DNA of 5,188 bases from Lachnospiraceae bacterium (GTDB lineage Bacteria > Bacillota_A > Clostridia > Lachnospirales > Lachnospiraceae), in the NCBI GenBank assembly GCA_017652545.1, contig JAGCAV010000402.1, forward strand, positions 1 through 5,188. The letters run 5' to 3'. The notes under the pieces are model-generated. The model was not told where the DNA came from. It made no database searches and saw only the letters and a program-made list of their open reading frames with translations. Below, piece by piece: positions 2,836 through 5,188 of this stretch; the first letter of the stretch is position 1; the number at the start of each line of letters is the position of its first letter. The translations under genes were made by a program, and so were the position numbers.

Positions 2836-3294
2836 ATGAAAAAACTGCTCACCGTCATCCTGATCCTGGCGCTGGCCATGCCGACGCTCGCCCTGGCGGA
2901 TCTGCCGGATATCTCCGGCCTGACGCTGGATGAACTGATCGAACTGAAGGACCGCATCAACAGCGCGATCTGGTCCGCCGACAACTGGAAGGAAGTCGAG
3001 GTCCCGCCGGGACTCTGGCAAGTCGGAATTGATATTCCTGCCGGCCATTGGAAAATCCGCCTGGCATCCGACCATGCCTACGCATATGTCTGGTATTTTG
3101 AAGAGCCGAACGAATTCGGGAAGCCATTCGCCACGCTGACAAAGTATGACAATACCGCAATTTCCACTAAAGACTGGCATGGCCATGATCGTCATGAAGC
3201 TGATTACGACATGAAAGAAGGCTGGTATTTCTATTGCGAAGAAACGACAATATTCACCCCTTATGACGGGAAGCCAAGTCTTGGCTTCGACTGA
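2836..3294 (+). CDS. Secreted protein of unknown function, 152 aa (candidate lysogenic-conversion gene)
   Basis: The start is fixed by AGGAGG at 2825-2830, five nt upstream. Residues 1-21 are a classic Sec signal peptide (MKK, hydrophobic core LLTVILILALAM, then TLALA), with cleavage likely after Ala21. There is no lipobox cysteine. The mature protein has a short helix (about 29-46, LTLDELIELKDRINSAIW). Two similar turns follow, VPPGLWQVG (56-64) and IPAGHWKIR (67-75); the 'DIPAG.W/Y' pattern recurs in secreted proteins of Gram-positives. The rest is aromatic-rich and probably beta-stranded, with only one cysteine (134), so no internal disulfide. It sits 24 nt after the repressor and directly before integrase, a position that should be transcribed in the lysogen. 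I infer an exported prophage accessory (moron) protein acting at the cell surface; the activity is unknown. Confidence 0.82.
   Translation: MKKLLTVILILALAMPTLALADLPDISGLTLDELIELKDRINSAIWSADNWKEVEVPPGLWQVGIDIPAGHWKIRLASDHAYAYVWYFEEPNEFGKPFATLTKYDNTAISTKDWHGHDRHEADYDMKEGWYFYCEETTIFTPYDGKPSLGFD
3270..3288 (+). repeat. Perfect 8-bp inverted repeat just before integrase
   Basis: GAAGCCAA and TTGGCTTC flank a three-base spacer (GTC), inside the last codons of the secreted-protein gene. No T-run follows, so it is not a simple terminator. It ends six nt before the integrase ribosome binding site and could influence integrase translation or mRNA processing. Confidence 0.5.
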
Positions 3295-3304: not shown

Positions 3305-4489
3305 ATGACCTGCCCGAAGTGCCATAAACCTTCCATTCCCGATGCGGTATACTGCCCGTATTGTGGAAAGAAACTTTCACCCGAACAAAAAAAGCGCCGC
3401 CCGAAACGGACGGCAAACGGCACCGGTAGCGCGTTCAAGCGCGGATCCGGATGGGTGGCCCAGGCGGTGGTCGGGTATCGTGAGCTCCCGGATGACCTGA
3501 TGGATCCGGCGAACAAGCGGCAACGGATCCCGATCAAAAAGACAAAGGCCGGCTTTGCCACGAAGGCGGAGGCGCTGGCATACATCCCGACGCTGCGGGC
3601 CCTGAAGCCGGATGCCGCCCCGACGCTGCAGTATTACTGGAACAACTACGAAAAGAACGAGTACACCGCCTTGTCAGCATCCAAGCAGACAGCCTACAGT
3701 ATCGCCTGGAACCGGCTGGACAAGCTCCACAACATCCGCGTGGACCAACTGACGGTCGTAGATCTTCGGGACACGGTGTCCGCGGAGTGTTCCACATATT
3801 ACACCGCAAAGGACTGCCGGACCGTGCTGACGACGCTCTTCCGCATGGCTGCAGCTGACGGATACGCGAACAAGGACCTGCCGTCCTTCATCCAGCTGCC
3901 GAAACTGACGGAAAAGGAACGCGAGCCATTCAACGATGTCGAACAGGCGACCCTCTGGAAGCTCTACGAATCCGGCGATCTCCGGGCCGCCATCCCGCTG
4001 CTGATGATCTACAGCGGCCTGATGCCGGGCGAGTGTTTCGACCTCCACGTGGACATGATTGACCTGGACAACCGGCAGATCATCGGTGCCGGCAAGAAGA
4101 CCACTGTCCGGAAGAAGACGCCGGTGACGATCGCCGCCGTGATCATCCCGGTGCTGGAGGATCTGATCGCCCATGCGCGGCCGTCAGGGCGGCTTTTTAC
4201 CGCCTCTGAGGATCAGTGGAGGAAAGACTACTACGACGCGCTGGAGGCGGCCAAATGCCGCAAATTACAGCCGTATTCCTGCCGCCACACGACCGCCACG
4301 GCGCTGGCGATCACGGAAGGCGTCGCTCCACAGACCATCAAAAAAGTCATGCGCTGGTCGACAACTCGGATGCTGGACCGGTACGCGCATCCGGATATGG
4401 AAGACACGAAAGCGGCTGTAGATGCCATAGGCCGCCAGTCAACTACCGACACACTACCGACAGATTGCGCTGAAACAATCGCAAAATAA
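3305..4489 (+). CDS. int: Phage tyrosine-family site-specific integrase with N-terminal zinc ribbon, 394 aa
   Basis: It catalyses integration of phage DNA at the attP site that follows it. Residues 3-20 form a zinc ribbon (Cys3, Cys6, Cys17, Cys20). A basic linker follows, then an arm-binding-type domain (about 40-98, GSAFKRGSGWVAQAVVGYRE). The SAM-like core-binding domain is about 106-200, and the catalytic domain about 208-375. Seen in the catalytic domain: a Lys pair in the beta-hairpin (264-265), 'PYSCRHT' with Arg327, Trp351 in 'MRWSTTRM', and the nucleophile Tyr360 in 'LDRYAHPD'. Two usual positions differ. The first catalytic Arg (usually TG.R.GE) is Met240 in 'YSGLMPGE', and the His of H..R is Tyr324. 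I believe related clostridial phage integrases share these variants. The last 16 residues (from about 379) are encoded by attP arm repeats. ATG 3305 has the better ribosome binding site. Confidence 0.93.
   Translation: MTCPKCHKPSIPDAVYCPYCGKKLSPEQKKRRPKRTANGTGSAFKRGSGWVAQAVVGYRELPDDLMDPANKRQRIPIKKTKAGFATKAEALAYIPTLRALKPDAAPTLQYYWNNYEKNEYTALSASKQTAYSIAWNRLDKLHNIRVDQLTVVDLRDTVSAECSTYYTAKDCRTVLTTLFRMAAADGYANKDLPSFIQLPKLTEKEREPFNDVEQATLWKLYESGDLRAAIPLLMIYSGLMPGECFDLHVDMIDLDNRQIIGAGKKTTVRKKTPVTIAAVIIPVLEDLIAHARPSGRLFTASEDQWRKDYYDALEAAKCRKLQPYSCRHTTATALAITEGVAPQTIKKVMRWSTTRMLDRYAHPDMEDTKAAVDAIGRQSTTDTLPTDCAETIAK
4442..4462 (+). repeat. Two integrase arm-type sites (integrase side of attP)
   Basis: ACTACCGACA occurs exactly at 4442-4451 and 4453-4462, an 11-nt period or about one helical turn. 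Both lie inside the integrase reading frame, encoding TTDT and then LPT. The same sequence occurs four times beyond the core, so these are best read as arm-type binding sites of this integrase. Confidence 0.7.
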
Positions 4490-4498
4490 AGGCATCAG

Positions 4499-4562
4499 CT
4501 CCCCTGCTAAGGGAGTAGTGTCAGTGATGGCAGCCCGGGTTCAAATCCCGGCTTCTCCGCCA
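4499..4562 (+). other. attP core: 3' part of a tRNA-Ser(GCU) gene
   Basis: The anticodon stem is CTCCC (4499-4503) with GGGAG (4511-4515), around loop CTGCTAA with anticodon GCT (4506-4508). A long class II variable arm follows (TGTCA 4519-4523 with TGGCA 4528-4532, loop GTGA). The T stem is CCGGG/CCCGG around TTCAAAT (4535-4551). The 3' acceptor strand is CTTCTCC (4552-4558), then discriminator G and encoded CCA (4559-4562). There is no 5' acceptor strand (expected GGAGAAG) or D arm upstream; the integrase stop lies 9 nt before. So this is not a working tRNA but the piece that rebuilds a host tRNA-Ser gene on integration. Confidence 0.85.
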
Positions 4563-4567
4563 AAATG

Positions 4568-4598
4568 CCCGTAGATCAACGATCTGCGGGTTTTTCTT
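4568..4598 (+). terminator. Rho-independent terminator downstream of integrase/tRNA core
   Basis: CCCGTAGATC (4568-4577) pairs with GATCTGCGGG (4581-4590) over ten base pairs with one G-U, loop AAC, followed by TTTTTCTTT. It would end the rightward lysogeny transcript in the excised phage. After integration it would lie directly behind the rebuilt tRNA-Ser, provided the crossover is within the tRNA part. Confidence 0.8.
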
Positions 4599-4639
4599 TC
4601 GCTCTGAATCTAAGCGTGGATTTCTGTAGTTTTCTACCA

Positions 4640-4660
4640 ACTACCGACATACTACCGACA
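4640..4660 (+). repeat. Two integrase arm-type sites (inner pair, holin side of attP)
   Basis: ACTACCGACA is exact at 4640-4649 and 4651-4660, with the same 11-nt period and orientation as the pair on the integrase side. A short inverted half-match (GTAGTT, 4626-4631, against AACTAC, 4639-4644) lies just upstream. Confidence 0.7.
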
Positions 4661-4684
4661 TGACATTTTCGAGCACCCCCTCCT

Positions 4685-4707
4685 ACTACCGACAATTACT
4701 ACCGACA
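4685..4707 (+). repeat. Two integrase arm-type sites (outer pair, holin side of attP)
   Basis: ACTACCGACA is exact at 4685-4694 and 4698-4707, with a 13-nt period instead of 11. They lie 25 nt beyond the inner pair and end ten nt before the A-tract of the leftward terminator. Confidence 0.7.
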
Positions 4708-4716
4708 TCCAGAGAC

Positions 4717-4747
4717 AAAAAAAGCGCCCCGGGATTTCTCCCAGGGC
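4717..4747 (-). terminator. Rho-independent terminator of the leftward lysis region
   Basis: GCCC (4726-4729) pairs with GGGC (4744-4747), and GGGA (4731-4734) with TCCC (4739-4742). There is one C/A mismatch and a TTTC loop. Read on the minus strand, the stem is followed by two bases and seven T's (4717-4723). It lies 50 nt past the holin stop and keeps late transcription out of attP and int. Confidence 0.85.
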
Positions 4748-4750
4748 ATT

Positions 4751-4784
4751 GTTATTTTGGAAATCCGTCATTTACTAAAATAAC
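4751..4784 (-). repeat. AT-rich imperfect hairpin after the holin gene
   Basis: GTTATTTTGGAAAT (4751-4764) pairs with 4770-4784 (ATTT, one bulged A, CTAAAATAAC), including one G-T pair, around loop CCGTC. It sits between the holin stop and the terminator. No T-run follows it. It may stabilise or process the 3' end of the late mRNA, or be a protein site; only the structure is seen. Confidence 0.5.
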
Positions 4785-4796
4785 AGATTCCATATT

Positions 4797-5021
4797 TTAC
4801 TCTTCATCAGGCGGTTGTTTTTCCTGTTTGTTGTACTGCATCGTGCTGATCCCAAGCAGGGCGCCCAGGAAGGCGTCGACCGCCGTGATCGTCCCGACGA
4901 TCTGCTCCGCGTATGGCAGATCCCAGATCCGGGCCAGGGCAAAATACAGCGTGCCGATCGCCGGCAGCAGGATCTGGGCGATAAACTTCAGGACATCATA
5001 TACCTTGTTGCTCATTTTCAT
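4797..5021 (-). CDS. Phage holin, r1t-like family, 74 aa
   Basis: The protein begins MKMSNKVYDVLKFIAQILLP. It has two transmembrane segments, about residues 11-31 (LKFIAQILLPAIGTLYFALA) and 41-59 (IVGTITAVDAFLGALLGIS). They are separated by a short 'IWDLPYAEQ' loop, and a charged tail ends EKQPPDEE. The order and the 'SNK.YD.LK', 'LPY.EQI' and 'TITAVDA.LG.LLGIS' patterns match the Lactococcus phage r1t-type holin family as I know it. Holins permeabilise the membrane late in infection and release endolysin. The start at 5021 is set by AGGAGG (5028-5033); an upstream ATG at 5051 lies inside the preceding gene. It is the last gene of the leftward late region; no endolysin follows, so that gene presumably lies upstream outside the window. 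Confidence 0.9.
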   Translation of the reverse strand: MKMSNKVYDVLKFIAQILLPAIGTLYFALARIWDLPYAEQIVGTITAVDAFLGALLGISTMQYNKQEKQPPDEE

Positions 5022-5027
5022 GTTGTA

Positions 5028-5033
5028 CCTCCT
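5028..5033 (-). promoter_or_regulatory. Holin ribosome binding site
   Basis: AGGAGG on the minus strand, six nt before the ATG at 5021, decides this start over ATG 5051. It begins immediately after the stop codon of the upstream gene (5035-5037), so the two genes are likely coupled. Confidence 0.8.
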
Positions 5034-5034
5034 G

Positions 5035-5188
5035 TCAGTGTGCGTAAGCATGGGCGGGCACCGGCTGCGCTTCCGGCGGGATCGACGGCAGCGCCCGCAC
5101 CTGGTTGTAGATATCGCTGATCACGTTATTCTCCCCCAGCGCCTCATATTGGACATACATATTATCAATGTTTGCCCGATCATCCGCG
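5035..5188 (-). CDS. Unknown phage late protein, C-terminal 50 residues only
   Basis: An open minus-strand frame enters from the right edge and ends at TGA 5035-5037, next to the holin ribosome binding site. The visible part includes 'ADDRANIDNMYVQYEALGEN', 'NVISDIYNQVRALPSIPPEA' and ends 'VPAHAYAH'. The middle looks helical, and the tail is Pro/Ala/His-rich and probably disordered. No family is recognised, no membrane segment is seen in this piece, and the start is outside the window (an internal ATG at MYVQ is possible). Codon use resembles the neighbouring phage genes, and coupling with the holin suggests a late, lysis- or tail-associated protein. Confidence 0.6.
   Translation of the reverse strand, partial: ADDRANIDNMYVQYEALGENNVISDIYNQVRALPSIPPEAQPVPAHAYAH

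Follow-up and report, generated by a model that had tools for sequence, protein, structure and literature searches.

Directly downstream of its integrase gene, the window (the whole 5,188-base stretch of DNA analysed here) carries part of a tRNA-Ser(GCU) gene between exact repeats, which a preliminary description took for an intact attP on non-integrated phage DNA. The locus raises the question of whether this region is a complete attachment site, one end of an integrated prophage or the junction of two prophages, and whether an integrase in which two catalytic residues are replaced could act on it. From the sequence comparisons below we hold with high confidence that a temperate phage of rumen or gut Clostridia has its complete attP at 4442-4707 and that the molecule is not a single integrated prophage. 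As a site, this attP is ordinary in kind; the noteworthy parts are the recurrent inversion of attP among relatives and the exchange of a catalytic arginine.

Layout of the site in the window

The integrase gene, int (3305-4489, + strand), starts with ATG at 3305, ends with a stop codon at 4487-4489 and encodes a tyrosine integrase of 394 aa (PF00589, E 1.6e-10; PHROG 1, integrase) with an N-terminal zinc ribbon followed by arm-binding, core-binding and catalytic domains. The tRNA piece behind it (4498-4562) comprises the whole anticodon arm (anticodon GCT at 4506-4508), the variable arm, the T arm and the 3' end with an encoded CCA, and makes up the attP core (4498-4563, +). ARAGORN called no complete tRNA in the window, and the Rfam tRNA match at 4512-4559 scored 24.1 bits against a cut-off of 29; all five Rfam matches within 4300-4900 were below threshold. 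Between the core and the right-hand repeats lies a terminator-like stem-loop with a T run (4568-4595, +; CCCGTAGATC / GATCTGCGGG, then TTTTT), and by eye similar stems stand 3' of host tRNA genes. The tRNA fragment and terminator (4503-4599) also gave a sub-threshold Rfam match to the Streptococcus sRNA SpF41 (27.6 bits, cut-off 52), a family that may itself contain att-site remnants.

The repeated word, ACTACCGACA, has six exact copies in the window, all on the + strand: two left of the tRNA piece (4442-4451 and 4453-4462) and four right of it (4640-4649, 4651-4660, 4685-4694 and 4698-4707). Shuffling gave a mean of 0.00 copies and reached six in 0 of 200 shuffles, and the 21-kb pieces of three related phages with the same word (L002, L004 and L005) hold six copies each, all within the attP region. 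The copies form a P-arm pair (4442-4462, +, spacing 11), an inner P'-arm pair (4640-4660, +, spacing 11) and an outer P'-arm pair (4685-4707, +, spacing 13); in relatives the counterpart of the P-arm pair lies mostly ~55-70 bp ahead of the anticodon loop. Past the right repeats, a Dp-1-type holin gene (Phage_holin_Dp1; 4797-5051, - strand; PF16938, E 4.6e-30; PHROG holin) is convergent with int, so the right flank is phage DNA. The preliminary description was thus accurate on the 3' tRNA part without a 5' half after int, on the two left and four right repeats and on phage genes beyond both flanks, and neither of the contrary signs it named, host genes past the right repeats or copies of the word outside attP in the three 21-kb pieces, was seen. 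Its layout needs amending in two respects: the left pair sits inside the 3' end of the int frame, and the repeats fall into three pairs.

Several features of this layout have counterparts in mycobacteriophage attP sites, as excerpted in PMC3203893: those of L5, Giles and cluster K draw their common core from a tRNA or tmRNA gene, that of CrimD has paired 11-bp arm-type repeats left and right of the core, which a stem-loop separates from the right arm, and the arm repeats of L5 and Giles are in direct orientation. The likeness is one of description, and the hosts are others; in the phages considered here, moreover, the arm word changes over dozens of phages and the whole attP is found inverted.

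Upstream of int, two 25-nt repeats (2092-2116 and 2346-2370, 80% identity) lie around a small HTH gene (2108-2320, -) ahead of a Cro/C1-type HTH gene (2488-2811, +) and are likely operators of the lysogeny switch. Between the repressor and int, 2836-3294 (+) encodes a 152-aa protein with a signal-peptide-like N-terminus and no Pfam or NCBIfam match, and the equivalent place in L021 (6058-6465) holds a different small signal-peptide-like protein; this interval is possibly a slot for lysogenic conversion.

The host tRNA gene and integrated and free relatives

An exact 55-nt core (CTGCTAAGG...CTTCTCC) was present at 11 places in 10 of 300 genomes from the family of the Clostridia MAG RGIG4436 (G003). 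ARAGORN called tRNA-Ser(gct) at all 11 places, with tRNA-Ser(tga) directly ahead of it at eight, and identity between window and host starts at 4498 at every site and ends at 4560-4564 (63-67 nt). Among 197 genomes from the family of a second genome, Clostridiales Firm_05 (G014), a 60-nt core match was found in G014 only. When the host 5' half was joined in silico to the core and P' side of the window, tRNA-Ser(gct) was called, and no tRNA was called in the reciprocal product or in attP alone. The 12 host pieces (~3 kb each, two shorter) contained no match to the int or holin of the window.

These results fit a mechanism in which the N-terminal domain of Int would bind the paired ACTACCGACA sites and its remaining domains the tRNA-derived core, and in which Int would recombine this core with the 3' half of the host tRNA-Ser(GCU) gene, the crossover presumably falling at the anticodon arm. 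Because integration would join the window's 3' half to the host 5' half, the tRNA would be restored on the holin side, and the int side would retain the displaced 3' fragment.

Scans with peptide patterns around the integrase motifs yielded 40 genome loci with a related int, at 15 of which an intact tRNA-Ser(GCU) lies beside int, downstream on the opposite strand. A P'-side pair accompanies it at 13 of the 15 (at L044, L055, L060 and L061 by 8-nt words only; L037 lacks the pair and L059 is doubtful), and a P-side pair at none; for comparison, 149 of 11,984 control zones of 110 bp elsewhere in the loci had an exact 8-nt pair with spacing 11-12. Three prophages are whole on one contig. In all three, the intact tRNA and a P' pair mark one end, the opposite end has a P pair with a 3' fragment, and the contig contains exactly two cores, not three. 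For example, contig C2 of G001 reads tRNA-Ser(tga), intact tRNA-Ser(gct), P' pair and int, and its far end, with 43.7 kb between the cores, has phage-end genes (one sub-threshold holin match), the P pair and the 3' fragment. Contig C11 of G013 is the reverse, with 3' fragment, P pair (2 mismatches in 9) and int, and 38.8 kb on the P' pair, intact tRNA-Ser(gct) and tRNA-Ser(tga). On contig C60 of G015 the P pair with 3' fragment and the P' pair with intact gene are 59.3 kb apart. In addition, G014 has int, a P pair and a 3' fragment, its 60-nt core equals that of the window except for the first base, and the gene past the fragment, for a peptidoglycan-binding-domain protein, is probably of the host.

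The host search and these junctions substantiate what had been proposed from the window alone, namely that the target is the 3' end of a host tRNA-Ser(GCU) gene and that attL and attR each keep one side of the arms found on both sides in the window. Prophages with int next to a partial tRNA copy, for which a search had been suggested, do occur (as on contig C11 of G013). As in tRNA-gene islands (Islander), the relatives have a restored tRNA at one end and a displaced fragment at the other; in contrast to the islands as excerpted in PMC4383910, the unintegrated form is seen here and the int side switches between relatives. By eye, P'-like arm pairs also stand behind intact tRNA-Ser(GCU) genes at L202, L210 and L211, with no related int or holin in the 3-kb piece, and these could be prophage remnants or ends at a tRNA-Ser(GCU) hot spot.

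In G003 (L033/L189), int, core and P' pair are followed by a 38-residue int remnant that faces the complete int (L033, after 11155; 60.5% identity, E 1.6e-10), the sole such case among the loci searched. Since the core lies between int and a facing remnant, phages of this clade meet at one chromosomal site; the double int is possibly the scar of two phages with opposite attP direction in tandem, and as such a clue to the attP flip.

A script searched the surroundings of the int end for a word present as two pairs at a distance of 150-330 bp. It found two-sided pairs in 68 of 121 int loci, or in 62 once exact duplicates were removed (43 oriented as in the window and 19 inverted). Full-length int regions had them in 63 of 106 cases, compared with 1 of 1,187 control windows taken within these loci and 0 of 106 shuffles. 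The 53 loci in which the script found no two-sided pair comprise some that are integrated, some that end too early and some that may have diverged repeats. Among the 62 loci the P pair has spacing 11 in 57, the P' pair has spacing 12 in 34 and 11 in 23, and the median distance between the pairs is 213 bp; the int-attP-holin order with matching words recurs. One copy of the core was present in 27 of 30 related virus records and none in three. Of the 20 related records whose ends were fetched, six overlap at their ends by 77-126 identical bases, five of them with a two-sided attP, and the other 14 may be fragments or linear since their ends do not overlap. From the single cores and end overlaps of these relatives, such contigs are phage genomes that carry attP, and some are closed.

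With both the P and the P' arms in place, the molecule is not a single integrated prophage, and on this sequence evidence it is most likely free phage DNA, which would be excised, replicating or packaged, a tandem array being less likely. Such an array, in which 4442-4707 would mark where two tandem prophages in the chromosome adjoin at a shared tRNA gene, we consider unlikely: the junction of same-direction prophages would give an identical sequence, islands in tandem at a single tRNA gene are recognised in the excerpted text of PMC4383910, and in G003 a core and its P' pair lie between the complete int and a convergent remnant, but the whole-prophage contigs have two cores rather than three, the related virus records nearly all have one, and a holin rather than a second int lies past the window's site, so that two tandem phages would need the same direction. 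Of the earlier claim of non-integrated DNA, therefore, attP and the lack of integration are well supported, also by the one-sided junctions of the relatives, and a free form as opposed to a tandem junction is probable.

The integrase active site and the arm-type sites

Arg I is usually essential in tyrosine recombinases, and an enzyme with both Arg I and the first His replaced is by default expected to be inactive. The window's integrase (residues numbered from 3314 as 1) has Met237 (codon 4022-4024, +) in place of Arg I and Tyr321 in place of the first catalytic His, as do 116 of 116 loci, a tally without five truncated rows. These loci all keep Lys262, Arg324 and Tyr357 and have Trp or His at residue 348, so that part of the catalytic R-K-H-R-H/W + Y set is absent. 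Since the protein has the PF00589 profile and the fold of tyrosine recombinases (AlphaFold model moderate, pLDDT 73, pTM 0.47) with Arg I and the first His replaced, it belongs to a variant active-site clade and is not a canonical member. Relatives outside this clade have Arg I (Faecalibacterium Aster, Butyrivibrio Arawn, Fusobacterium Funu2, two faecal clones and L014-L016), and its absence is thus a mark of the clade. The N-terminal zinc ribbon (CxxC...CxxC; 3314-3380 of the window) is absent in part of the clade. The distant Arg I integrase of L015 adjoins what by eye resembles the 3' portion of a different tRNA, together with TTGTTGAC-like repeats (~11150-11220), in the same int-attP arrangement as in the window. 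In 50,697 phage records a near-DNA search with the whole window gave no match, and a protein search with int gave 13 records, all below 60% identity; NCBIfam returned three Xer-type models only, far below cut-off, and the PDB sequence search three sequences of one Int protein (6emz, 6en0 and 6emy), weak, with a best E of 0.0014.

An alignment of 370 proteins (88 Arg-type and 282 Met-type among the matches listed) drew on the best 120 matches each from Aster (Arg-type), MT835551 (Met-type) and one further search. Residue 266 (codon 4109-4111, +), four residues past the catalytic Lys, is Arg in all 281 listed Met-type proteins with a residue there and in none of the 88 Arg-type proteins (Gly 87, Asn 1). 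The first His is Tyr in 280 of 280 complete Met-type rows among these matches, and in the 86 complete Arg-type rows it is His in 46, Tyr in 37 and another residue in three. Because Arg at 266 tracks the loss of Arg I, we regard Arg266 as a candidate for, and perhaps the actual, relocated catalytic arginine. Residue 269, however, is Arg in 69 of the 88 listed Arg-type rows and mostly Thr in the Met-type, so the residue for which Arg266 substitutes may be Arg269, either alone or together with Arg I. The Met/Arg266 exchange is probably one event in one clade, and 281 versus 0 hence does not amount to 281 independent cases; the scans for integrase loci, moreover, used peptide patterns around these very motifs, which biases the sampling. 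As other substitutes for Arg I, Arg224 was dropped (Arg in just 52 of 116 loci) and Arg347, the first candidate, was demoted (also in 18 of 86 complete Arg I-bearing rows among the matches listed).

In CTnDOT Int the substitute Arg is at K-2. Arg I is likewise absent in some CTnDOT-type integrases (IntCTnDOT), and IntDes has Arg I shifted and the first His replaced by Tyr (PMC8138268). Compared by description, the substitute Arg of CTnDOT Int is said to lie further downstream, the candidate here is at K+4, and IntDes is, in the excerpted text of PMC8138268, reported from Desulfovibrio only. From the Tn916/Tn1549-type integrases (IntTn916 subgroup), as excerpted in PMC8138268 and PMC5871717, that of the window differs in its replaced Arg I and first His, its N-terminal zinc ribbon and its tRNA-gene target. 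Arg I contacts the scissile phosphate in Tn1549 Int, where R225K served as the inactive control (PMC5871717, in excerpt), and the window's attP might by analogy be a relic whose integrase is dead. This is very unlikely, as the replacing residues are invariant, such integrases lie in prophages with precise junctions (L051 in G001, L040 in G013 and L028 in G015), and Arg266 stands for Gly exactly where Arg I is lost.

Arm words vary between phages (ACTACCGACA, TATTCCTAACA, TTCCCAACA, TACTACCCACA, TACTAATAACA and TACTGTTTACA, among others). They share a shape close to TAyTnCynACA and give 39 consensus words in 62 loci. Across these loci the distance between words correlates with that between arm-binding domains (r 0.60), also when the catalytic domain is taken into account (partial r 0.50, p 0.0005, 2000 permutations), and correlation with the catalytic domain given the arm-binding domain is r 0.016 (p 0.38). 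This is the covariation that arm-type sites should show, and we infer that the ACTACCGACA pairs are such sites; a small-scale parallel is found in cluster K mycobacteriophages, in which arm-word differences are tied to residues of the integrase N-terminus (excerpted in PMC3203893). The wide variation of the words between phages could instead point to operators, Xis/RDF sites or iterons, but the fixed place of the pairs around the core, their single side after integration and their covariation with the arm-binding domain make this reading highly improbable. Eight loci (L067, L069-L071, L076, L105, L106 and L113) have the same arm pairs and geometry with no tRNA-Ser(GCU) core between them, and seem to be related phages in which the target changed and the arm word was kept.

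Finally, the window could be an integrated end (attL or attR) whose holin side comes from a neighbouring element or decayed host prophage, as the arm pairs without a related integrase at L202, L210 and L211 might by eye suggest, but this can practically be set aside given that left and right repeats are the same word, that a decayed neighbour is not expected to match word and spacing, and that the same gene order with matching words is found in relatives.

Orientation of attP among related phages

Among relatives of the attP-bearing phage of the window, the whole attP (arms, core and terminator) is in some cases reverse-complemented with int and holin in place (L005/L064, L073, L077-L080, L107 and others). 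For example, when L107 was compared with L101 by BLAST, int aligned on the plus strand up to 16 bases before the L107 stop, and past int a stretch of 282 bp (79.8%) aligned on the minus strand, -5 to 275 with 278 to -1; between L073 and L075, int aligned plus, attP minus and the holin region plus. The holin strand, callable in 34 of 110 labelled loci (the other 76 had no holin match), is the same in both attP states (23 of 23 and 11 of 11). Orientation was labelled for 110 of 117 rows by the strand of the core, or by repeat-word direction where the core is not tRNA-Ser (the eight loci with no tRNA-Ser(GCU) core between the arm pairs), with L030 and L035 set by hand; L058-L061 (truncated int) were excluded from the tree and residue tallies, and L065 from the 116-locus tally. 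On a quick LG+G4 tree of int, at least 23 changes of orientation are needed over the 117 rows, 17 of them "forced" with the seven unlabelled rows counted with the other side; on an equally quick tree of the 110 labelled rows alone there are at least 24, of which 20 are forced by starred branches, and shuffled labels give a mean of 36. Opposite orientations share the same word in L063/L064 (ACTACCGACA), L073/L074 (TACTACCGA) and L103/L107 (TACTGTTTACA), which favours an in situ flip over an exchange involving an unrelated phage. Both orientations integrate, as seen in G001 and G013. Among the papers listed in searches of open-licence full text, we recognised no description of inverted attP among related prophages or of arm-site coevolution.

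A wider reading, which we offer tentatively and regard as doubtful, is that attP is a reversible module repeatedly turned in place while int, arm word and lysis genes stay, in a large clade of Clostridia phages whose Arg I may have moved from its canonical helix to the beta hairpin that follows the catalytic lysine, at K+4. The Arg I exchange would amount to natural compensation within an active site regarded as nearly invariant. More generally, arms on both sides of attP in a metagenomic contig directly indicate a phage outside the chromosome, and matching attL and attR allow the host to be named without culture, here a family of rumen Clostridia MAGs. The loci also link integrase N-termini to their arm words in dozens of natural combinations, sufficient for an attempt at a recognition code. 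A flipped attP would leave the target tRNA gene unchanged and reverse the direction of prophage entry, and if flips come from recombination tied to the site (e.g., between tandem opposite-direction phages, as G003 hints), prophage orientation would be a switchable trait. Prophage direction has been studied by inverting lambda in E. coli (PMC11253608, in excerpt); with attP repeatedly inverted in nature, selection on the direction of prophages at a fixed tRNA gene becomes testable.
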